From positions 806,001-870,000 of the forward strand of contig NZ_CP115842.1 in the NCBI RefSeq assembly GCF_013318015.2: a stretch of DNA of 64,000 nt. The letters are read 5' to 3'. Below, one piece after another: positions 26,917 through 35,630 of the stretch. The position numbers and the translations under genes are program-made. Every line of letters starts with the position of its first letter. Position 1 is the stretch's first letter. The stretch comes from Agrobacterium tumefaciens (GTDB taxonomy: Bacteria; Pseudomonadota; Alphaproteobacteria; Rhizobiales; Rhizobiaceae). The notes beneath the pieces were generated by a model that worked only from the letters and a program-made list of their open reading frames with translations, had not been told where the DNA came from and made no database searches.

Positions 26917-28056
26917 TTGACTGAGAGACGGCAGGGCGGGTTGGCAGGCATTGGCGCAACACAGGGTGCGCTTCTGGGATATATCAGGCGCAAGGGTTCG
27001 GCCTCGCGGGTCGAGCTTGCCGACTATTGCAGCATAACGCCGGCTGCCGTGAGCATGATGACGCGCAATCTGCTTGAACGCGGTATCATCGAGGAAGGTG
27101 CACGCCGGCAGGAAGGCCGTGGCGCACCCCATATCGACCTCACGCTCAAAAAAACTGTCGGTTACGCCCTTGGTGCGCACGCCAACCGTTATTCGGTGAT
27201 GTTGACGCTGTTGAATTTTGGCGGAGAGATCGTTGGAGAATTGCAGATGCGCGGCTCCTATGACGCGTTTTCCGATGTCCAACGGGCGCTTCAGGACGGA
27301 TCCGAAGAACTACTGACGAAAAATGCGATCAACAGGAGCCAACTGATCGGCGCGGCCATTGCAATGCCGACCCGCTTTCGCAAGGAAGCCATGTCGCTCG
27401 ATCTTGCCGAAGAGGTTATTTCCTGGGCCGGGTCTGACCTTTCCGCCATGCTGCGCGAGGCGCTGCGTTGTCCGGTGATCATAGAAAATGATGCCAATGC
27501 CGCAGCCATGGGTGAACTGACGCTTGGCAATGCGGACGGACACGAAAATTTCGCTTATCTCTATCTGTCCGAGGGGATCGGCGGCGGCATCATTATCAAA
27601 AATGAGCTTTATCGCGGTTATCTCGGCAATGCCGGCGAGATCGGCGCCTTGCGCGGCCGCAGCACTTCGCGGCCCTCCTTCGAAGACCTGGCGGCATGGT
27701 GCGTGGAGCATGTGGGAGAAAAACCCTCGGGGCGCGCACCCGAGGTCTGGACGGATTACCTCTTGCGCAACTCCGCCGTGTTTGAGGCGTGGCTGGAACG
27801 GGCGGGACCGGAGGTTGCGCGCCTCGCCTTCGCTGTCAGCGCCGTTCTGGCGCCCACGGCAATCTTTGTCGGCGGCACCTTACCAAGGATCGTACGACAG
27901 CGGCTGGCGGAATGGCTGGATTACGAACGCTCGGACCCGTTCGACGGCGCAAAGGTGATACAGCCGAAAATCCAGCTGCCGGATGTGGTTGCGACAGACC
28001 CCGTGGCCTTCGGTGCGGCGGCGATGATCCTGCACGGCGTCGGAGAAGTGCGTTAA
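26917..28056 (+). CDS. ROK-family transcriptional regulator
   Basis: The 379-aa protein has an N-terminal winged helix (SRVELADYCSITPAAVSMMT, then GRGAPHI in the wing) and a ROK sugar-binding domain with VIIENDANAAAMGELTLG and GIGGGIIIKNELYRG. The usual ROK zinc motif C-x-C-G-x2-G-C is missing: the corresponding stretch reads GNAGEIGALRGRS and then diverges, so zinc binding is doubtful. Start is TTG 26917, since a GGGAGAG box lies ten bases upstream. It probably represses the divergent importer/GDPD operon until an inducer sugar or phosphodiester product binds. Confidence 0.88.
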   Translation: MTERRQGGLAGIGATQGALLGYIRRKGSASRVELADYCSITPAAVSMMTRNLLERGIIEEGARRQEGRGAPHIDLTLKKTVGYALGAHANRYSVMLTLLNFGGEIVGELQMRGSYDAFSDVQRALQDGSEELLTKNAINRSQLIGAAIAMPTRFRKEAMSLDLAEEVISWAGSDLSAMLREALRCPVIIENDANAAAMGELTLGNADGHENFAYLYLSEGIGGGIIIKNELYRGYLGNAGEIGALRGRSTSRPSFEDLAAWCVEHVGEKPSGRAPEVWTDYLLRNSAVFEAWLERAGPEVARLAFAVSAVLAPTAIFVGGTLPRIVRQRLAEWLDYERSDPFDGAKVIQPKIQLPDVVATDPVAFGAAAMILHGVGEVR

Positions 28057-28085
28057 AGGCCGGAGCGCATGTCCCGGGGGAGGCC

Positions 28086-28409
28086 TCAGCCGAGATTGGT
28101 CACCATGAAATAGATCAGCCAGCAATGCCCGATCACCAGCACGGCCCAGGCCCATTTTGCAAGCCTGATATCGACATCGATGACGGTATTGCTGATTTCC
28201 GCCACGCGAAAAGCCTCTTCCTCAACCCGGTTCTCCGGCGGGCGAGATCTCAGCACCTTCCTGGAAACCGGCTCGCCCACGACATAAAGCCTGTCGTTCG
28301 CAACTGATGGACGCGGGTCGTCGTTGGCGCTCCCGTCAAGGGAAAGCACGTCGTCACCCGAGGCGCAACTCACCGCTAATAGCTGTGATGACACCCGCCT
28401 GTTACGCAT
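28086..28409 (-). CDS. Small putative lipoprotein with C-terminal membrane helix
   Basis: From ATG 28409, which follows a GGAGG box, the frame encodes 107 aa. It starts MRNRRVSSQLLAVSCASG, where LAVSC could be a lipobox. A hydrophobic segment near the C-terminus (WAWAVLVIGHCWLIYFMV) should span the membrane. No known domain is recognised. It is convergent with the ROK gene. The strong ribosome site and the membrane segment are the reasons to accept it. Confidence 0.55.
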   Translation of the reverse strand: MRNRRVSSQLLAVSCASGDDVLSLDGSANDDPRPSVANDRLYVVGEPVSRKVLRSRPPENRVEEEAFRVAEISNTVIDVDIRLAKWAWAVLVIGHCWLIYFMVTNLG

Positions 28410-28597
28410 GTTACCTCCATTGGGCATCACAAATCTTCCACACAATAAAAATAAAAAAATTCACCTGCTGCTCCCGACAAAGCCTTGGCTTTACCGGGCA
28501 TATTTGCGATGCGCGCAATACGCGCCGCGCCAGTTGAACCCCTTCTCGCCCCACGCTCTTGCGCTCCCCCGGAAACGCATCGGCATCAGCCCCGCCA

Positions 28598-29083
28598 TTA
28601 ACGTGCCGGGCTTCCCGGCAAATCGTGCCTTCCCGCGTAAGGCCTTACCTCTCGCTGGATCAGGAAGACGGATTTCTCGACCGGCAGCGGTTCGGCTGTC
28701 CGGTAGCGATGAGACCGCTTGGAATATTCAAACCGGATCCGCCTGTCTTCGAACTTCCCCGCCAGAACGCGATAGCCGTTGACGACCTCGTTCAGTATTT
28801 CCAGCTCTTCTCCCCACAGCCAGCCACCGTAAGAAGTGCCTTCGTTGGAGCGCAGCACGATCTCGAAAAAATGCCCGCCGGCTGCAAATGGCATGCGGAA
28901 AATAATATCGAGATTGTCCTCATCTTCGTCGTCGCATGCCGACAGTCTGGCATGGGCAACCTTCGCATGGGCCAGCGCCGAGACCGGATAGAACGGGCGC
29001 CCTTTGAACCACATGAACTCACACACCGCATAACCGACGTCGTCGGCACGCTGGTAAGGTTCAGTACGCGGCTCGAACGCCAT
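28598..29083 (-). CDS. Hypothetical protein, 161 aa
   Basis: The minus frame from ATG 29083 (MAFEPRTEPYQRADDVGYAV, box GGAAG) is soluble and natural in composition, with aromatic and acidic stretches such as SACDDEDEDNLDIIFRMPF and GGWLWGEELEILNEVVNGY. The opposite-strand frame over the same region is rich in Arg, Pro and Gln and reads like a shadow. I do not recognise a family. It may be part of the same transcript as the small lipoprotein, or a separate gene; the 188 bases between them hold nothing I can identify. Confidence 0.6.
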   Translation of the reverse strand: MAFEPRTEPYQRADDVGYAVCEFMWFKGRPFYPVSALAHAKVAHARLSACDDEDEDNLDIIFRMPFAAGGHFFEIVLRSNEGTSYGGWLWGEELEILNEVVNGYRVLAGKFEDRRIRFEYSKRSHRYRTAEPLPVEKSVFLIQREVRPYAGRHDLPGSPAR

Positions 29084-29256
29084 GTAGCTTCCGTTAAACG
29101 CTATCAATTTCGAAAATTCCCGATGCCTGCCTGATGCATGATTGCTGTTTTCCGCCCGTCGCCCGCGCCTCTATTCACGACAATAGGCAAGCGGCGTCAC
29201 ACCAGCGTCAAATGGAACGCCAATGATGACTTTCAATTTCCCGGACACATTGTTAG

Positions 29257-31209
29257 ATGGTGATTCATGAGGGAACGAAATTGGCTGGGAACGCTGAACT
29301 GATACCGATCCGGCTTTTTGGCACCCCGCGCTGCGATGCGGTGCGGCAAGCGTTTTTCCCGTCCAAGGGCTTTGCCCTCACTGCCGCCCTGATCCTTGCT
29401 CCCAATCAGTCCCTTTCCCGCCAGCAGGCCGCATCGCTGTTATGGGAAAACGTCGAGCAAAAAAGGGCACTGGGCAATTTGCGGCAGCTGATCCTGCGCC
29501 TCCAGAAGCTGTCGAGCGATGACGATGCCATCCTTCTGACAGAAGGGAACGACCTGAAGGCCGGAAAGCTGGCGCAGCGGACCGACCTTGCGATCTTTCT
29601 TGCCGGCGCGAGAGCAGAAGACCCGATGCAGAGGCTGCAAGCCCTGCTCGAATTCGGCGGCGATCTGCTGGAGGGGCTGGAGGCTGGGCAGGACCACCTT
29701 TATCTCTGGCTGCTGTCTGAGCGACGCCGTCTCAAGGACCTGTTCTTTTCAAGCTATACACCGCTTCTGGAGGAGTTGACGCGGTTCGGCCGCGCCAGTT
29801 CGAACAACATCGCATCGCTTGCCGAATGCGCGCTGAAGATCGAGCCGGAGCGCGAGGAAACCTACCGCGCCGCCATGGCGGCCTATGCGCGGGTGGGAAA
29901 CACCAGCGCCTGCGAGGGAATTTTCCAGCTTCTGATGGAACAGCTCCGCCAGGAGGACCGACCTCCGGAGGCCGAGACAGTGGCGCTTCGACGGCGGATA
30001 CAAAGTCTGGCCTCGACGATAGTATCCCCCGCCGAACCGGATGAGGGTAGCCGCCGAAAACCGATGGCAAAACCACGCGTCGCCTTCAGCCGTCCGGTGC
30101 GGGTGGACGGGCTTGCGGTATCGCCGGTGATGAGTGCCTTTGTCGAGGATGTCGCCAATAGTCTCGTTCGATACCGGACCTTCACCGTTCTTTCGACGCA
30201 CAGCACCTTTGTAGCGACACACGACCGGACCGACGACAGTTATGCAATGTTGCGGGCGGATTACCGCATCGTCTCCACGGTTTTCGACGATGCCCGCATG
30301 TCGGTAGCGCTGATCGAGGAAGCGACCGGAGAAATCGTCTGGTCGCTGGAGGTTGTGCTGACCGCGCGGCATATTCACGCCGCTTTTCGACTGCTGTCCA
30401 AACAGGTGGCCGCGGGGCTTGCCCGCGAGATCGAGCGGCTTCAGGTGGAACCAGACCGCAACCACAGCGGCGAGGCCTACCGGCAATTGCTGGAGGGCCA
30501 GCAGCTTCTGCGCGGCAAGTGCGACCTGCCGCTTCTTCGAAGAGCACGCTCGATGTTCCGCAAGGCGGTCGATCTGGATAACAGCATGGCGGTTGCCCGC
30601 GCCCGCGTGGCGCAGAGCCTGCAGCTGGAATGGCTGATGCTGGGCGGCAACGACCCCCACCTGCTGCACCGCGCCAAGGCGGAGGCAGACGCCTCCGTCG
30701 AAATCGATCCCGCTCTTGGCGTCGGCCACTGGATGTGCGCCGTCGTGGCGCTCTACCAGCGGGATTTCGACATATCCGCCGAAAGGTTCTTCGAAGCGGA
30801 GGCGCTTGCGCCCAACTCCGCCGACCTTTTGCTCCAGCATGCCGATGCGCTCGCCCATTTCGGCGATGCCGAAACCGCATGGGAAAAGTTTCAGCAAGCC
30901 ATCGACCTCAATCCGCTCGCACCCGACATCTACTGGTGGGCGGGCGCCAGCATCGCGTTCAAGCGTGAGGATTACGGCGCGGCAGTAGAACTGTGCGCGC
31001 GCATGGAAAATGACGAGCCGGCATTGCGCGTCTTGACCGCGAGCCACGCGCTCCACGGTGATTTGGACGCTGCCCGGGAAACCGGCAGCAGGCTTCAGGA
31101 AAACTATCCGGGTATGACGGCGAGGGAAATCAGCAGCCTGTCCCCAGACCGAGACCCGGTAGCGAATGAAAAATTCTATAACGCACTTCGATTAGCTGGG
31201 ATCAAATAG
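29257..31209 (+). CDS. SARP/BTAD-type transcriptional activator with TPR domain
   Basis: The 650-aa protein has four recognisable parts. Residues about 15-110 resemble a SARP winged helix (LSRQQAASLLWENVEQKRA, then LGNLRQLILRLQKL). Residues about 115-250 match a BTAD bundle. Residues about 270-395 resemble the TolB-like/CadC-associated domain (STHSTFVATHDRTDDSYAML, EEATGEIVWS). The C-terminal 230 residues are TPR repeats (ARSMFRKAVDLDNSMAVARA, FFEAEALAPNSADLLLQHAD, KFQQAIDLNPLAPDIYWWAG). It is probably a pathway-specific regulator for the YcaO/TfuA genes that start eight bases after its stop. ATG 29257 has little ribosome site; TTG 29281 with GAGGGAAC is an alternative. Confidence 0.85.
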   Translation: MVIHEGTKLAGNAELIPIRLFGTPRCDAVRQAFFPSKGFALTAALILAPNQSLSRQQAASLLWENVEQKRALGNLRQLILRLQKLSSDDDAILLTEGNDLKAGKLAQRTDLAIFLAGARAEDPMQRLQALLEFGGDLLEGLEAGQDHLYLWLLSERRRLKDLFFSSYTPLLEELTRFGRASSNNIASLAECALKIEPEREETYRAAMAAYARVGNTSACEGIFQLLMEQLRQEDRPPEAETVALRRRIQSLASTIVSPAEPDEGSRRKPMAKPRVAFSRPVRVDGLAVSPVMSAFVEDVANSLVRYRTFTVLSTHSTFVATHDRTDDSYAMLRADYRIVSTVFDDARMSVALIEEATGEIVWSLEVVLTARHIHAAFRLLSKQVAAGLAREIERLQVEPDRNHSGEAYRQLLEGQQLLRGKCDLPLLRRARSMFRKAVDLDNSMAVARARVAQSLQLEWLMLGGNDPHLLHRAKAEADASVEIDPALGVGHWMCAVVALYQRDFDISAERFFEAEALAPNSADLLLQHADALAHFGDAETAWEKFQQAIDLNPLAPDIYWWAGASIAFKREDYGAAVELCARMENDEPALRVLTASHALHGDLDAARETGSRLQENYPGMTAREISSLSPDRDPVANEKFYNALRLAGIK

Positions 31210-31217
31210 GAGTTATT

Positions 31218-31646
31218 ATGTCCTCGCACTTCTTTATTGTCGGAAAAAAGGGTTTCGGCGTTCTCTTCATTCGCACGGCGCCGCTCAGGGTTGCGTCCGT
31301 CTCGCATGAGACGATTGCCGCCTATGAAGCCAGCCATCCCGGTGTGGACGGTTACGCGCGCGTTGCTGCGGCAGCAAAATCCATGCTCGTTCGTCAGGAC
31401 GGCCAGCCCGAAAACGAGCTGGATCAGGTCCAGATCCAGGGCATCGAAGCCCTCGTCGCCGGCGGCGCTGTCGTTTCCGAGGCCGATTTCGCCTTTGTCG
31501 GCGAAGTGATCGACGCCGGCTGGGATTTCAACCGCATGGTGCAGGCGCCGATCGAATCGGCCCTGAAGGCTGTTGGTCCGGCGGGTTCCGTCACCGGCGA
31601 ACTGTTCGACGCCATCCTTGCCGACGACACCAACGCGGCGCCTTGA
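31218..31646 (+). CDS. 142-aa cysteine-free protein; candidate substrate of the YcaO/TfuA pair
   Basis: An AGGAG box five bases before ATG 31218 makes the start clear. The product begins MSSHFFIVGKKGFGVLFIRT, is mostly helical by composition, ends SVTGELFDAILADDTNAAP and contains no cysteine at all. I recognise no family. It is placed between the regulator and the YcaO gene, the position where RiPP precursors are often encoded, though 142 aa is long for one. Lack of Cys argues against thiazole formation, but YcaO-TfuA pairs are known to make backbone thioamides, which need no Cys side chain. Five Arg residues could be targets of the pentein-like protein. It could instead be a carrier or a separate enzyme subunit. 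Confidence 0.8.
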   Translation: MSSHFFIVGKKGFGVLFIRTAPLRVASVSHETIAAYEASHPGVDGYARVAAAAKSMLVRQDGQPENELDQVQIQGIEALVAGGAVVSEADFAFVGEVIDAGWDFNRMVQAPIESALKAVGPAGSVTGELFDAILADDTNAAP

Positions 31647-31662
31647 TTGCGCCCCCGCAGCC

Positions 31663-32880
31663 TTGACCGCTGACGGCGCACATATTCCAGCGACAGCGGC
31701 TTTAGGGCATCCGGACGCTTCGTTCTTCGATCCCGAACTGCTTCGGCGGTTCGGGATTACCCGCGTCGGAGACGTGACCGGTCTCGATATTATCGGCATA
31801 CCCGTCTGGTTCGCGACGCGGCCCAATTCACGCGGACTGTCGGTCTCCCAGGGCAAGGGGCTTGTCGCGGAGCAGGCACGGCTTTCCGCGATCATGGAAG
31901 CGATCGAAGGTGCCGTCGCCGAAGACACCCGCAAACATATCACCACTTTCGGCTCCATTCGTGAGATGCGGGACAAGGGCGCCCCTCTCGTTCCTTTCGA
32001 AACGATCGGCCGGGTCGACCCGGACACTCTTGATCTGCGAAACGAACGCGCCTGGGTGAAGGGAACATCCATACGCCAGCAGCTGGAGGTTTTTGCCCCC
32101 TATGAGCTGGTGGGCATGGATTTTCGCGCGGATTTCCCCTGGGACCGGCAGGCCTTTCTCATGAGTTCGCAAGGTCTTGCGGCGGGTTTCGACCATGACC
32201 ACGCGGTTCTGCACGCCTTGCTCGAACTCATCGAAAACGACGCCTGCTTTCTCGTCGATACCTTCGAAACCCGCAATATCGCGCCGGAACCGGTCGTGTT
32301 GCCGATGGGTGTCGACACATCCTTCGATGCTCTTGTTCAACACCTTTCACATATCGGACTGCCGCCCCGCTTCTTTGATCTCACCAATACGCTCGGCGTG
32401 CCTGTAGTCATGGCGAGCCTGCCACGGTCAATCCACGCGCAGGACGGACTTGCCACCCGCAGCGCTGCCGGCGCAGCGTGCCGGTTTGGCACCTATGACG
32501 CGGCAATTGCCGCGCTGCTGGAGGCGATCCAGTCGCGACTGACTGACATCAGCGGCGCGAGGGACGATCTCTCTCCTTTGCGCTACCAGCGGGATATGTT
32601 TGCGGCGGGACCGGCGGCATCCGAGGTGTGGCCAATGGACCGGATCCCGGCCAGTCTCGATTTTGCGAATAGCGATCCGGCTCTACCGCCGTGGCGTCAG
32701 CTTGCAGAGCATCTTTTCGCCGCCGGGATCGACGACATCTATGTCTTTGCGCTGGAAACGGGCGTATCCGGTCTGCATGTCGTCCGGGTTCTGGCAAGCG
32801 GCCTCACCCCTGCCGGTGGTGGCCTTCAACGTATATCCCAGCGCACGCTCGACCGGTTCCTGAACCTCGGAGGCCTTTGA
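31663..32880 (+). CDS. YcaO-domain cyclodehydratase/thioamidation ATPase
   Basis: The C-terminal two thirds carry the YcaO ATP-binding signatures: SAIMEAIEGAV (Ser75, Glu79, Glu82), HALLELIENDAC (Glu188, Glu191, Asp193) and LEAIQSRLTDISGARDD (Glu287, Gln290, Arg292). YcaO enzymes phosphorylate a peptide backbone amide; with TfuA the product is a thioamide. The N-terminal start is unsure. TTG 31663 is chosen (MTADGAHIPA), leaving 16 bases after the 142-aa gene but no clear ribosome site; TTG 31573 or 31618 would overlap that gene. There is no Pro-rich C-terminus of the azoline-forming class. The stop overlaps the tfuA start (TGATG), showing coupled translation. Confidence 0.93.
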   Translation: MTADGAHIPATAALGHPDASFFDPELLRRFGITRVGDVTGLDIIGIPVWFATRPNSRGLSVSQGKGLVAEQARLSAIMEAIEGAVAEDTRKHITTFGSIREMRDKGAPLVPFETIGRVDPDTLDLRNERAWVKGTSIRQQLEVFAPYELVGMDFRADFPWDRQAFLMSSQGLAAGFDHDHAVLHALLELIENDACFLVDTFETRNIAPEPVVLPMGVDTSFDALVQHLSHIGLPPRFFDLTNTLGVPVVMASLPRSIHAQDGLATRSAAGAACRFGTYDAAIAALLEAIQSRLTDISGARDDLSPLRYQRDMFAAGPAASEVWPMDRIPASLDFANSDPALPPWRQLAEHLFAAGIDDIYVFALETGVSGLHVVRVLASGLTPAGGGLQRISQRTLDRFLNLGGL

Positions 32881-33593
32881 TGAAGCCGGTGGTTTTTGCA
32901 GGCCCGTCCATCCACGGCATCGCACCCGCGCAGATTTCCGGCCTCGATCTTCGTGGCCCGGCTGCCTGCGGCGACATTTTCGACGCGGTAAAGCAGGGTG
33001 CCCGGACAATCGGGCTGATCGACGGCCTCTACGGTGACTGCGCCGCCGTGTGGCACAAGGAAATCCTGTTCGCGCTGTCAGGCGGCGTCACTGTTCTCGG
33101 TGCCGCCAGCATGGGCGCGCTAAGAGCGGCGGAATGCGCGGCCTTCGGCATGATCGGCATCGGCGAAATCTTTGAAGCCTATCGGGACGGGCTGCGTTTT
33201 TCCGACGCCGATGTGGCAGTCAGCCACGCGCCCGGCGAACTCGACTACCGCCCGCTTACAATCGCGCTTGTCGATGCCGAAGCGACGCTCGAAGCGTGTC
33301 GCGCCGCTATCGCCCCAGAGGAACACGACGCCTTGCTGAACGCCGCCCGCAAGCTGCATTTTAACCGCAGGACATGGCGTGCAATGGCAACTGAGGCAAA
33401 CCTCAACCTCGAGACCGCAAATTTTCTGGCCGGAAACGCGGTTTCCGCCAAACGCAACGATGCGGCCCGGCTTTTAGGCCTGCTTGGCAGCGGAGAATTG
33501 CCATCCCCGCCGCCGCAATCGTGGAAATTACAGAACACGGTATTTTTCCAGCAATTGGCCACGCGGCAGACGGCGGGAGAAAAAGCGTCTTGA
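32880..33593 (+). CDS. tfuA: TfuA-like protein, partner of YcaO
   Basis: The 237-aa product matches the TfuA family: VVFAGPSIHGI at the N-terminus, RTIGLIDGLYGDCAAVWHKE, ALSGGVTVLGAASMGALRAA and GIGEIFEAYRDG, then HAPGELDYRPLT. TfuA proteins were named from trifolitoxin production in Rhizobium and work with YcaO in thioamide formation, including thioglycine in methyl-coenzyme M reductase, where they are thought to help deliver sulfur. ATG 32880 shares one base with the YcaO stop and has a GGAGG box six bases upstream. Its own stop overlaps the next gene. Confidence 0.95.
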   Translation: MKPVVFAGPSIHGIAPAQISGLDLRGPAACGDIFDAVKQGARTIGLIDGLYGDCAAVWHKEILFALSGGVTVLGAASMGALRAAECAAFGMIGIGEIFEAYRDGLRFSDADVAVSHAPGELDYRPLTIALVDAEATLEACRAAIAPEEHDALLNAARKLHFNRRTWRAMATEANLNLETANFLAGNAVSAKRNDAARLLGLLGSGELPSPPPQSWKLQNTVFFQQLATRQTAGEKAS

Positions 33594-34795
33594 CCGCTGC
33601 CCCGCACCCGTCTCTGCTGCCCGACTGCGGAGGACTGATCCGGACAATCGCGCTTGCCTTGCCCGCCGCGTTTTTTGCGGGTGACAGGGCTGAAGGGGGC
33701 GTCTCTCCGCTCATCCCGATCGGAAACCTGCTTTCGGCTCTGCCTTCCGACGTCACGGCCCTTGTTCTTATCGATGGCCCCTGTCTCGCCTCCGCTGAAA
33801 GCTGGCTCAGCAGGCTGGCAGCCACCTGCACCGCAGAACTGTTACCGCTCGATGCAACCAGCAGCGTTTCGCACCCGTGGATACAGGACGTGTTCCACGT
33901 TCGGACTGCTGATGGGATCGCAACCGAACTGCTTTGTGCATCGGAAAGCGCCGTCACTGGCGAGCTCGCCAATCGTCTCGGGCTTGCCGCCAACGCTTCG
34001 CATGTCACTTTGCCGGGCGGTAACCAGCTGGTCGGGCCGGACTTTCGATTGGTGGGCCATTCCAGCCTGCAGGACGACAGGGGTATGGCAAACAATGCGG
34101 CAACCGAACGGCCGCAACAATGGCAGCGGGTTCAGGCACTCGACTACAGAACCCTGGGCAGTTTCGGATATCGGCCGGAAGACCTCGGCAATGCCTCGGC
34201 CTCAATCGCTCTTACCTCGGCAAACACGTCGCCTCCGGCGATCACCTTCGGAAAAATCCACCAATGCGGTTTCCACGTCGACCAGTTCGTTTCGGTCACA
34301 GGTCTAAGACGCGATGGCCACCCGCTATTGCTGGTTGCCGATCCGGTGGCCCATGAATGCAACGCCCGTAATGCGATGGATTTGAAACGTAAACTGGATG
34401 CCTCCGTTCTATTGCTGGCACAGCAGGGCTTCGCAATCCTGCGAAATCCCATTCCGGTTTTACCCACCATCGACACCAACAAATGCCTGCCTCGGCTTTA
34501 TAACAACGTGCTTGTTGAAAATATCGTGCGCTCCGACCAAGAGAAGCCATTCGTCTGGGTTCCCCATTTCGGTGATGCGGAAACGCTCGACGGTTTCGAC
34601 CGAGAGAACAGGAAAATTTGGGAAAGACTGGGCTTTCACGCCATCGGCGTGGCCGGCTGGAGCCATTTTGCCAGCAGAAACGGGGCATTGCGATGTGCAA
34701 CAAAGGTGATAAACCGTCAACCAGCACAGCATACCGACGGAAAACAGCCTTACTTTATCAGTAACACCTCACAATACCCGTGGAAATTGTGTTGA
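33590..34795 (+). CDS. Pentein-fold guanidino-modifying enzyme-like protein (agmatine deiminase/PAD-like)
   Basis: From TTG 33590, with GGGAGA about nine bases upstream, this gives 401 aa. The start overlaps the TfuA stop (TTGA). The sequence carries in order the landmarks of the guanidino-modifying (pentein) superfamily: HPWIQDVF (Asp100), LPGGNQLVG (Asn145 in GGN), FHVDQF (His229-x-Asp231) and NGALRCATKVINRQP (Cys369). The last resembles the nucleophile loop of agmatine and peptidyl-arginine deiminases (G-x-H-C-x-T). Residues for a Cys-His-Asp triad are therefore present. The expected chemistry is arginine/guanidine deimination or amidino transfer. In a YcaO/TfuA context this suggests Arg conversion in the same substrate, which is inference. 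It has extra Cys residues and is divergent overall. Confidence 0.75.
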   Translation: MTAAPHPSLLPDCGGLIRTIALALPAAFFAGDRAEGGVSPLIPIGNLLSALPSDVTALVLIDGPCLASAESWLSRLAATCTAELLPLDATSSVSHPWIQDVFHVRTADGIATELLCASESAVTGELANRLGLAANASHVTLPGGNQLVGPDFRLVGHSSLQDDRGMANNAATERPQQWQRVQALDYRTLGSFGYRPEDLGNASASIALTSANTSPPAITFGKIHQCGFHVDQFVSVTGLRRDGHPLLLVADPVAHECNARNAMDLKRKLDASVLLLAQQGFAILRNPIPVLPTIDTNKCLPRLYNNVLVENIVRSDQEKPFVWVPHFGDAETLDGFDRENRKIWERLGFHAIGVAGWSHFASRNGALRCATKVINRQPAQHTDGKQPYFISNTSQYPWKLC

Positions 34796-34861
34796 ATGTC
34801 TACCTTCAACAATATTAATTGATAAATATCCAATTTAAGAACCTCACAACTGGAGGAGTTC

Positions 34862-35302
34862 ATGATGCAGGCCAAACTACCCAGCCCGATCGATGTGCAT
34901 GTGGGTACACAAATCCGAATGCGCCGCAAGTCGCTCGGCATGAGTCAAAGCGCGCTGGCGGGCCGGTTGGGCATTACCTTCCAGCAGGTCCAGAAATACG
35001 AAAAGGGTGCCAATCGCGTCGGCGCGTCCCGTTTGCAAGCCATTGCATCGGTTCTCGGCGTCGATGTCAGCTCTTTGTTCGCCAATGCGACGCCGGATGT
35101 CGGAAACGCCAATCCCGCCCTTGGCACGATCAATGCCATGCAGTCTTTCGTTGCGTCGAATGAAGGATTTTCGCTCAATCAGGCCTTTGCCCGAATCAAG
35201 AGCGCAACCGTGCGCAAGAGCATCGTTGCCCTCGTGACATCGCTTGCGGCTACCGAAGCGGCGGAAAATAACGGCGCGCCGGAAAACAAGAGCGACGATT
35301 GA
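34862..35302 (+). CDS. XRE-family regulator, PraR/PhrR-like
   Basis: The 146-aa protein has an N-terminal helix-turn-helix, VGTQIRMRRKSLGMSQSALA followed by GITFQQVQKYEKGANRVGAS, the typical XRE fold of rhizobial PraR/PhrR-like regulators. A helical C-terminus of 70 residues probably serves dimerisation. The strong GGAGGAG box precedes ATG 34862; a second ATG follows at once. The 66-base spacer after the pentein gene is AT-rich and could hold a promoter, so it may be a separate unit rather than part of the YcaO block. Confidence 0.88.
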   Translation: MMQAKLPSPIDVHVGTQIRMRRKSLGMSQSALAGRLGITFQQVQKYEKGANRVGASRLQAIASVLGVDVSSLFANATPDVGNANPALGTINAMQSFVASNEGFSLNQAFARIKSATVRKSIVALVTSLAATEAAENNGAPENKSDD

Positions 35303-35309
35303 CGCAGGT

Positions 35310-35331
35310 GTGACGCTCGCGTGACGCTCGA
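35310..35331. repeat. 11-bp tandem direct repeat
   Basis: GTGACGCTCGC (35310-35320) is followed at once by GTGACGCTCGA (35321-35331). The pair lies between the XRE gene and the 77-aa gene, one helical turn apart, and could be a regulator site for the small gene. It could also be a chance duplication. Confidence 0.45.
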
Positions 35332-35396
35332 TGTGGTCGAAAATGAACAACGCGGGATCAACGCGTTTTCATACTGTCGACTGTCGAGAGGGAATC

Positions 35397-35630
35397 ATGG
35401 TGGCGTCTACCGCAGCAATACTTGAACAGGACAATGCAGACGAGATTCTGGCGCTCGGGCGGATGGTTTCCTATCTTTGCCAGCGCTCCAAATCTCTGGA
35501 ACTGGGGATGTCGACCTATTTCCTGGAAATGGCATTGCTGTCGCTGGCCCAGGACATCAATCAGCATGGCTCGCTACCGGCTGGCGCAGAAATGAACGGC
35601 AGCGGTTTCGCACACGCCGAACTCCATTAA
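35397..35630 (+). CDS. Small hypothetical protein, 77 aa
   Basis: ATG 35397 is preceded by GAGAGGGAATC. The product (MVASTAAILEQDNADEILAL, ending SGFAHAELH) is acidic and mostly helical, with LGMSTYFLEMALLSLAQDIN in the middle. No domain is recognised; it has the look of a small regulatory or partner protein. Two hairpins follow it, so it probably ends a transcript that starts with the XRE gene. Confidence 0.7.
   Translation: MVASTAAILEQDNADEILALGRMVSYLCQRSKSLELGMSTYFLEMALLSLAQDINQHGSLPAGAEMNGSGFAHAELH

Follow-up and report, generated by a model that had tools for sequence, protein, structure and literature searches.

A conserved YcaO-TfuA-pentein gene cluster of Agrobacterium tumefaciens with a candidate thioamidated precursor protein

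Introduction

The 64,000-nucleotide stretch of Agrobacterium tumefaciens DNA analysed here (NZ_CP115842.1, positions 806,001 to 870,000 of the forward strand; hereafter the window) is part of a 2.14-Mb contig, C2, of a 6.0-Mb genome, and carries consecutive genes coding for a SARP-TPR regulator, a protein of 142 amino acids (aa), a YcaO, a TfuA and a pentein. The question raised by this locus is whether these genes form a genuine cluster and, if so, which molecule its enzymes would modify, and how. The initial annotation had proposed a new system for a ribosomally synthesised and post-translationally modified peptide (RiPP) or for protein thioamidation. The locus is a real, conserved cluster of eight genes, larger than the five-gene cassette, and its sequences identify it as thioamidated-RiPP-like, with a deiminase-type pentein. 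That the cluster thioamidates a W-x-x-x-R core of the 142-aa protein and deiminates the arginine of this core to citrulline has, in our estimation, about an even chance of being correct.

Results

The five-gene core and its conservation

All five plus-strand open reading frames (ORFs) are intact, each with a single terminal stop. They encode the SARP (BTAD)-TPR regulator (29257..31209, 650 aa, ATG start), the 142-aa proposed precursor or substrate (31218..31646, ATG start), the YcaO, a proposed ATP-dependent backbone thioamide synthetase (31663..32880, TTG, start uncertain), the TfuA, its proposed sulfur-delivery partner (32880..33593, ATG start), and the pentein, a proposed peptidyl-arginine deiminase (33590..34795, TTG start). 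As initially described, the successive genes are spaced by 8 and 16 bases, then joined by a TGATG and a TTGA overlap. The claim of a dedicated regulator also holds, its BTAD domain being clear (PF03704, 1.4e-18), with TPR matches below the cut-off in the Pfam scan.

A profile scan of genome contigs with the pentein alignment as probe provided 25 loci, a set which is blind to the frequency of the other genes without a pentein. In all 25, the SARP, 142-aa, YcaO, TfuA and pentein genes follow in the same order on one strand, so that the arrangement is not a matter of chance. These loci belong to Agrobacterium, Rhizobium, Neorhizobium, Ciceribacter, Xaviernesmea, a Hyphomicrobiales metagenome-assembled genome (MAG), Dongia MAGs and a groundwater Proteobacteria MAG; the gene order thus reaches Dongia, of the same class and another order according to the kinship labels used, and is not limited to close relatives. 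In A. tumefaciens CNPSo 675 (L015), the SARP, 142-aa protein, TfuA, pentein and a helix-turn-helix (HTH) protein described below are 100% identical to those of the window, and YcaO is 99.8% identical.

YcaO and TfuA

The enzyme identity of the YcaO-TfuA pair, already recognised from motifs, is established by homology. YcaO matches PF02624 (6.9e-52, 177 bits) over profile positions 1-324 of 325, and its nearest NCBIfam family is TIGR03266 (127 bits, below the cut-off of 365). Its nearest solved structure is 6pe3/6peu (MJ1094, E 1.6e-15), to which it aligns through the stretches GKG, MEAIE, LELIE.DA and QSR..ISGARDD, which we take to be the YcaO ATP-binding motifs, and the ATP-binding fold is intact. 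As for TfuA, which adjoins YcaO, it matches PF07812 (2.3e-40, 137 bits) and NF033432 (161 bits, below the cut-off of 235), with 6xp8 as the nearest solved structure (E 1.3e-31).

The 142-aa protein and a core repeated in relatives

Neither the 142-aa protein nor the pentein has a Pfam match, and the sole NCBIfam match of either lies at E 0.1. Relatives of the 142-aa protein sit in such clusters in every locus opened, and can be divided in three: an N-terminal domain comes first, then the core, then a tail with an L-x-x-A-x-L-x-D end in the nearer relatives. Their alignment comprises 40 nearer rows, at least 49% identical to the window protein, and 11 distant rows (four with pentein-less context, seven without known context).

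The core module, residues 88-121 (EADFAFVGEVIDAGWDFNRMVQAPIESALKAVGP, 31479..31580, plus strand), has counterparts repeated in relatives: four in P0165, five in P0166, four in P0167 (Rhizobium sp. CSW-27, locus L032) and two in P0052, all copies carrying GWDxNR. In L032, copies 1-3 share 74-76% protein and 71-78% DNA identity, and the protein identity of copy 4 to them is just 32-38%. The module includes W102-D-F-N-R106 (31521..31535, plus strand), the putative site of both thioamidation (at the x-Arg bond) and arginine deimination. W102 and R106 are invariant in the 40 nearer rows, and Arg106 is preceded by Asn in most relatives. Downstream, the C-terminal tail, or follower (31581..31643, plus strand), has L129, A132, L134 and D136 invariant in the same rows. 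A conserved leader with a variable or repeated core is thus found among the relatives; the window copy has one core. The proposal that the 142-aa protein is the likely substrate is supported.

In genus g54, the N-terminal domain and tail are retained around different repeats, with about a dozen A-G-V/I units in the L010 and L014 precursors and Q-rich units in that of L013. This genus is probably Labrys, because its precursors are, by eye, near-identical to P0169 and P0172 of Labrys. The three loci also hold a second SARP-precursor-YcaO set without TfuA (L010 14321-18699, L013 6530-11019, L014 10545-15025), in which precursor and YcaO are separated by a PaiB-like protein (FMN_bind_2, PF04299, 3.9e-57, L010 being the one tested).

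The pentein

The last gene of the core encodes a protein with the fold of the pentein superfamily. The Cys-His-Asp set noticed initially corresponds to D100, H229, D231 and C369, invariant in 33/33 relatives, which align with D80, H201, D203 and C341 of agmatine deiminases (hhalign probability 53%, E 1.3e-4), presumably the catalytic residues of the latter. PF04371 (PAD_porph) gave no match with the window pentein and reached one of the 33 relatives at E 0.0084, short of the cut-off; a scan of the window's own genome with this profile gave no match either. A distant pentein of this family was also seen on a Paenibacillus polymyxa plasmid (L128 8746-10062), beside a DNA/RNA non-specific endonuclease and with no YcaO within the 19 kb opened.

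The YcaO-TfuA pair might thioamidate the 142-aa core while the pentein acts elsewhere in the pathway, as an amidinotransferase, a dihydrolase or a small-molecule deiminase. We consider this rather unlikely: agmatine deiminases are the best-scoring comparison, about 9 Z units above the rival pentein types, and the window pentein has HQCGFH in place of the agmatine-type DET[DS]GH stretch, presumably tied to agmatine as substrate, a difference that speaks against agmatine. A further point against it comes from the precursors, as in the YcaO tree, read most simply, pentein and motif are lost together. We infer a peptide arginine as the pentein substrate solely from this co-occurrence with the arginine motif.

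Association between motif and pentein

A W-x3-R motif after residue 80 is present in all 26 precursors of L015-L039, and likewise in L012, L076 and L121, while both precursors of L082 carry Y-x3-R; an aromatic-x3-Arg is therefore found in 31/31 precursors from 29 pentein loci. By comparison, W-x3-R occurs in 0/20 precursors of pentein-less clusters (13-20 kb examined each, best stray pentein match E 0.026). On the YcaO tree (49 rows), pentein and motif each change three times, and one reading gives one gain and two losses, the motif being lost both times.

Proposed mechanism

In the scheme considered here, the SARP-TPR protein would switch the operon on. The N-terminal domain of the 142-aa protein (residues 1-90), predicted to be folded, could serve as recognition part, and the predicted strand 91-98, which in the AlphaFold2 (AF2) model lies immediately upstream of W102-R106, would present the W102-x-x-x-R106 core, followed by a short acidic tail. 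YcaO and TfuA would then swap a backbone oxygen of the core for sulfur, most likely at Asn105, which precedes Arg106, since the thioamidations of thiovarsolin (Pro-Arg) and of std (Asn-Lys) precede a basic residue. The pentein would next hydrolyse the Arg106 guanidine to citrulline, a substrate suggested by the co-occurrence of pentein and aromatic-x3-Arg. Because Asn precedes Arg106 and tailoring would fall to a deiminase-type pentein, a thioamide at 105 with a citrulline at 106 is the simplest model. Release might be left to host proteases, or the modified protein used whole. We infer each of these chemical steps from genes, homology and analogy.

Selection and the fate of the 142-aa protein

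The dN/dS ratios (nonsynonymous to synonymous substitution rates) were calculated against the six nearest loci, five from Agrobacterium and one from Rhizobium rhizogenes (L016-L020, L038). They range from 0.029 to 0.080 for the 142-aa gene, 0.045 to 0.104 for SARP, 0.076 to 0.107 for HTH, 0.123 to 0.174 for YcaO, 0.131 to 0.183 for TfuA and 0.201 to 0.317 for the pentein, the 142-aa gene being the lowest of the six in 6/6 loci. With five more distant loci, for which dS is near saturation, this rank is less clear, and L021 and L029 contradict it. The pattern would favour a constrained product over an arms-race toxin.

This slow evolution is what would be expected if the modified 142-aa protein worked whole in the cell, as McrA or uL16 do, with no peptide excised. 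The AF2 model is folded (predicted local distance difference test, pLDDT, 81.8, vs. 68-81 for the other four models), the cassette is without protease or exporter, and YcaO enzymes can accept folded substrates, so that folding is no objection: the E. coli YcaO recognises folded uL16 and not a linear motif, according to the available text of PMC13063428. Against this, the tandem duplication of the core and its replacement by unrelated repeats in relatives resemble excised repeating cores, and the same slot holds 44-47-aa peptides in other SARP-YcaO-TfuA clusters; we regard a whole-protein function as unlikely. The initial annotation had suggested from the missing protease and exporter that the product may stay in the cell or be a modified protein. 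The argument itself says little, because known thioamidated RiPP clusters may lack required transport genes (PMC8120280, available text). As to the suggestion, the repetition of the core module in relatives makes a RiPP precursor more likely than a generic modified protein, although retention as a folded protein keeps a small probability.

It is very unlikely that the 142-aa protein is an adaptor of YcaO and that the true substrate is another protein. Its constant place beside YcaO, its folded model and its slow evolution would suit an adaptor; tandem 34-residue modules and hypervariable repeats would not be expected of one, and the SARP-YcaO interval of the window is filled by the 142-aa ORF alone.

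Several observations weigh against thioamidation and deimination of the W-x-x-x-R core. For a precursor, the 142-aa protein is of unusual size and strong conservation (dN/dS 0.03-0.08 vs. 0.20-0.32 for the pentein), neither a leader peptidase nor a cleavage site was identified, and YcaO and TfuA score under the NCBIfam cut-offs for McrA thioamidation. Concerning the motif, three pentein-less precursors carry Y-x3-R elsewhere (YLTQR), L079 has a pentein, albeit a divergent one, and its 121-aa precursor is devoid of W-x3-R, and 5/11 distant alignment rows have Arg without an aromatic residue at the aligned position (one pentein-less, the second set of L010, and four without known context). Moreover, the forks separating pentein-positive from pentein-negative groups are open in both trees, and the independent pairs number one on starred branches and two on all; with only one or two such pairs, the motif-pentein association is not significant.

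Additional genes and distribution of the cluster

An HTH gene, a 77-aa helical protein and a divergent 169-aa gene accompany the cassette in most Rhizobiaceae loci. The sixth gene encodes an Xre-type HTH regulator (34862..35302, plus strand; PF01381, 5.1e-14), present in 21/25 loci; at E<=1e-45, it and the 142-aa gene occur in exactly the same 21/39 genus genomes. The seventh (eighth when the divergent gene is counted; 35397..35630, plus strand) encodes the 77-aa protein, helical by inspection. An iterative hidden Markov model search found it in 30/51 loci, namely 18 of the 25 five-gene loci (the window standing in for L015), L121 and 11/11 pentein-less loci with SARP, short precursor and YcaO (L119, L120, L122-L127, L132, L133, L135), and not in the remaining 21, including the Labrys-type and Dongia-type loci. 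The 169-aa gene (28598..29107, minus strand) was detected by tblastn in 22 of the 44 loci examined: 20/24 among L016-L039, L121 and the pentein-less L080. Its product, of no known family, has no Pfam match in the window copy (1/11 relatives at E 0.037) and matches nothing in the PDB up to E 1; ADDVG and YGGW stretches are invariant in it. Beyond the locus borders, the scanned genes code for a ROK regulator and ABC-transporter components.

The distribution of the cluster is patchy. Counting the window's own genome each time, the 142-aa gene is present in 21/39 genomes of the genus, 6/297 of the family, 5/297 of the order (single-sequence query) and 3/398 of the phylum, one of the latter being a weak match (22.5 bits) that corresponds to the pentein-less locus L081. 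SARP at E<=1e-70 was found in only 4/385 class genomes (G000 and three of genus g128), and at E<=1e-40 in 121 plasmid records, of which 119 are from Rhizobium. Three loci were opened from these records: L119 and L120, with short precursors, and L121, a five-gene locus; L123 was found through YcaO.

Discussion

Two sets of sister clusters share part of this equipment. The Rhizobium/Sinorhizobium clusters L119, L120 and L123 have the same SARP-TPR, YcaO, TfuA, HTH and helical partner; L122, L124-L127, L132, L133 and L135 have SARP-TPR, YcaO and the helical partner, together with TfuA and HTH except in L124. Unlike the window locus, both sets lack the pentein and have different, short precursors without W-x3-R: 44-47 aa in the first, 71-86 aa in the second. 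The peptides of the first set (L119 9011-9154, L123 6722-6865, L120 9049-9183) end in ALRFR/ALKFR. In the second, the Shinella precursor (L125 6678-6938) has three terminal SGGFMD units, its relatives in L126 (Ensifer) and L132 (R. rhizogenes) have one SGGFMDG, and no homology of this group to the 142-aa family was detected. Sinorhizobium meliloti Ak57 (L124 4849-8477) has SARP, a 71-aa precursor, YcaO and the helical protein, with no TfuA or HTH match in 15 kb. In the pentein-less L080 (4792-6147), a 451-aa CxxCH-motif protein follows TfuA, possibly another tailoring gene or an unrelated one. Some sister-cluster records annotate the SARP or TfuA gene as 'toxin' or 'trifolitoxin related'.

More than 500 YcaO-TfuA clusters were counted in Rhizobium by Malit et al. 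(2021), with Agrobacterium and Rhizobium among the dominant TfuA gene-cluster families (PMC8120280, available text). The present locus may be listed there without interpretation; in the main text, as available, the words 'deiminase', 'SARP' and 'repeat' do not occur. Among 5.39 million open-access papers, YcaO and deiminase come together only in the std preprint, whose available text states that its own cluster has no such enzyme (PMC13174530). No description of a YcaO-TfuA-deiminase cluster was found among the matches listed (titles and abstract openings, most subscription papers lying outside this scope). The initial statement that no described pathway has this combination stands to that extent; it has to be qualified in that the thiovarsolin YcaO-TfuA pair adjoins an amidinotransferase (PMC6511847, available text).

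A new alphaproteobacterial RiPP class, whose folded leader domain would display one or more W-x-x-x-R cores for conversion into thioamide-citrulline pairs, is a tentative proposal to which we give somewhat less than an even chance. If true, it would add a third way of placing a thioamide ahead of a modified basic residue, and the strong precursor conservation would suggest a conserved signal, or a metallophore-like or cofactor-like role, and not a fast-evolving bacteriocin. The locus lends itself directly to testing what is made by a part of the large, uncharacterised rhizobial YcaO-TfuA group. The model expects the modification at a single dipeptide (x-Arg106) of a single protein.

Comparison with known systems

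The YcaO-TfuA system for McrA glycine thioamidation provides the nearest NCBIfam families (TIGR03266, NF033432) and structures (6pe3/6peu, 6xp8), but both window proteins miss the curated cut-offs. In citrulassin, a bacterial peptidyl-arginine deiminase (PAD) likewise turns a RiPP Arg into citrulline (PMC12971885; Harris 2020, via PMC13174530; available texts); the product is, however, a lasso peptide, and the PAD is likened by description, not by sequence.

YcaO-TfuA pairs are known to install thioamides, in thiovarsolins between Pro and Arg of a precursor with repeated cores (PMC6511847, available text, as for the rest of this paragraph). The thiovarsolin cluster (varAYT, Streptomyces varsoviensis) thus resembles the window locus by its YcaO and TfuA, its imperfect core repeats, its thioamide directly before Arg and its nearby guanidino-acting gene, the amidinotransferase varS, whose deletion left production unaffected. 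It differs in being actinobacterial, in having the heme-oxygenase-like VarO (no such Pfam domain was found among the nine proteins of window positions 26917-35630) and an amidinotransferase instead of a deiminase, and in that no SARP-TPR/HTH/helical partner set is named in that text.

The std system of S. thermodiastaticus is alike in that YcaO-TfuA thioamidates the Asn before a Lys, after which a ureido group is formed (Lys to homocitrulline); unlike the window locus, it has a carbamoyltransferase-peptidase and an MNIO in place of the pentein, and an SNKEWQE motif (PMC13174530, available text). If the proposed scheme is right, the cluster would add deimination to the thioamidated RiPPs and join these two published systems, in both of which a basic residue directly follows the thioamide and is later altered.

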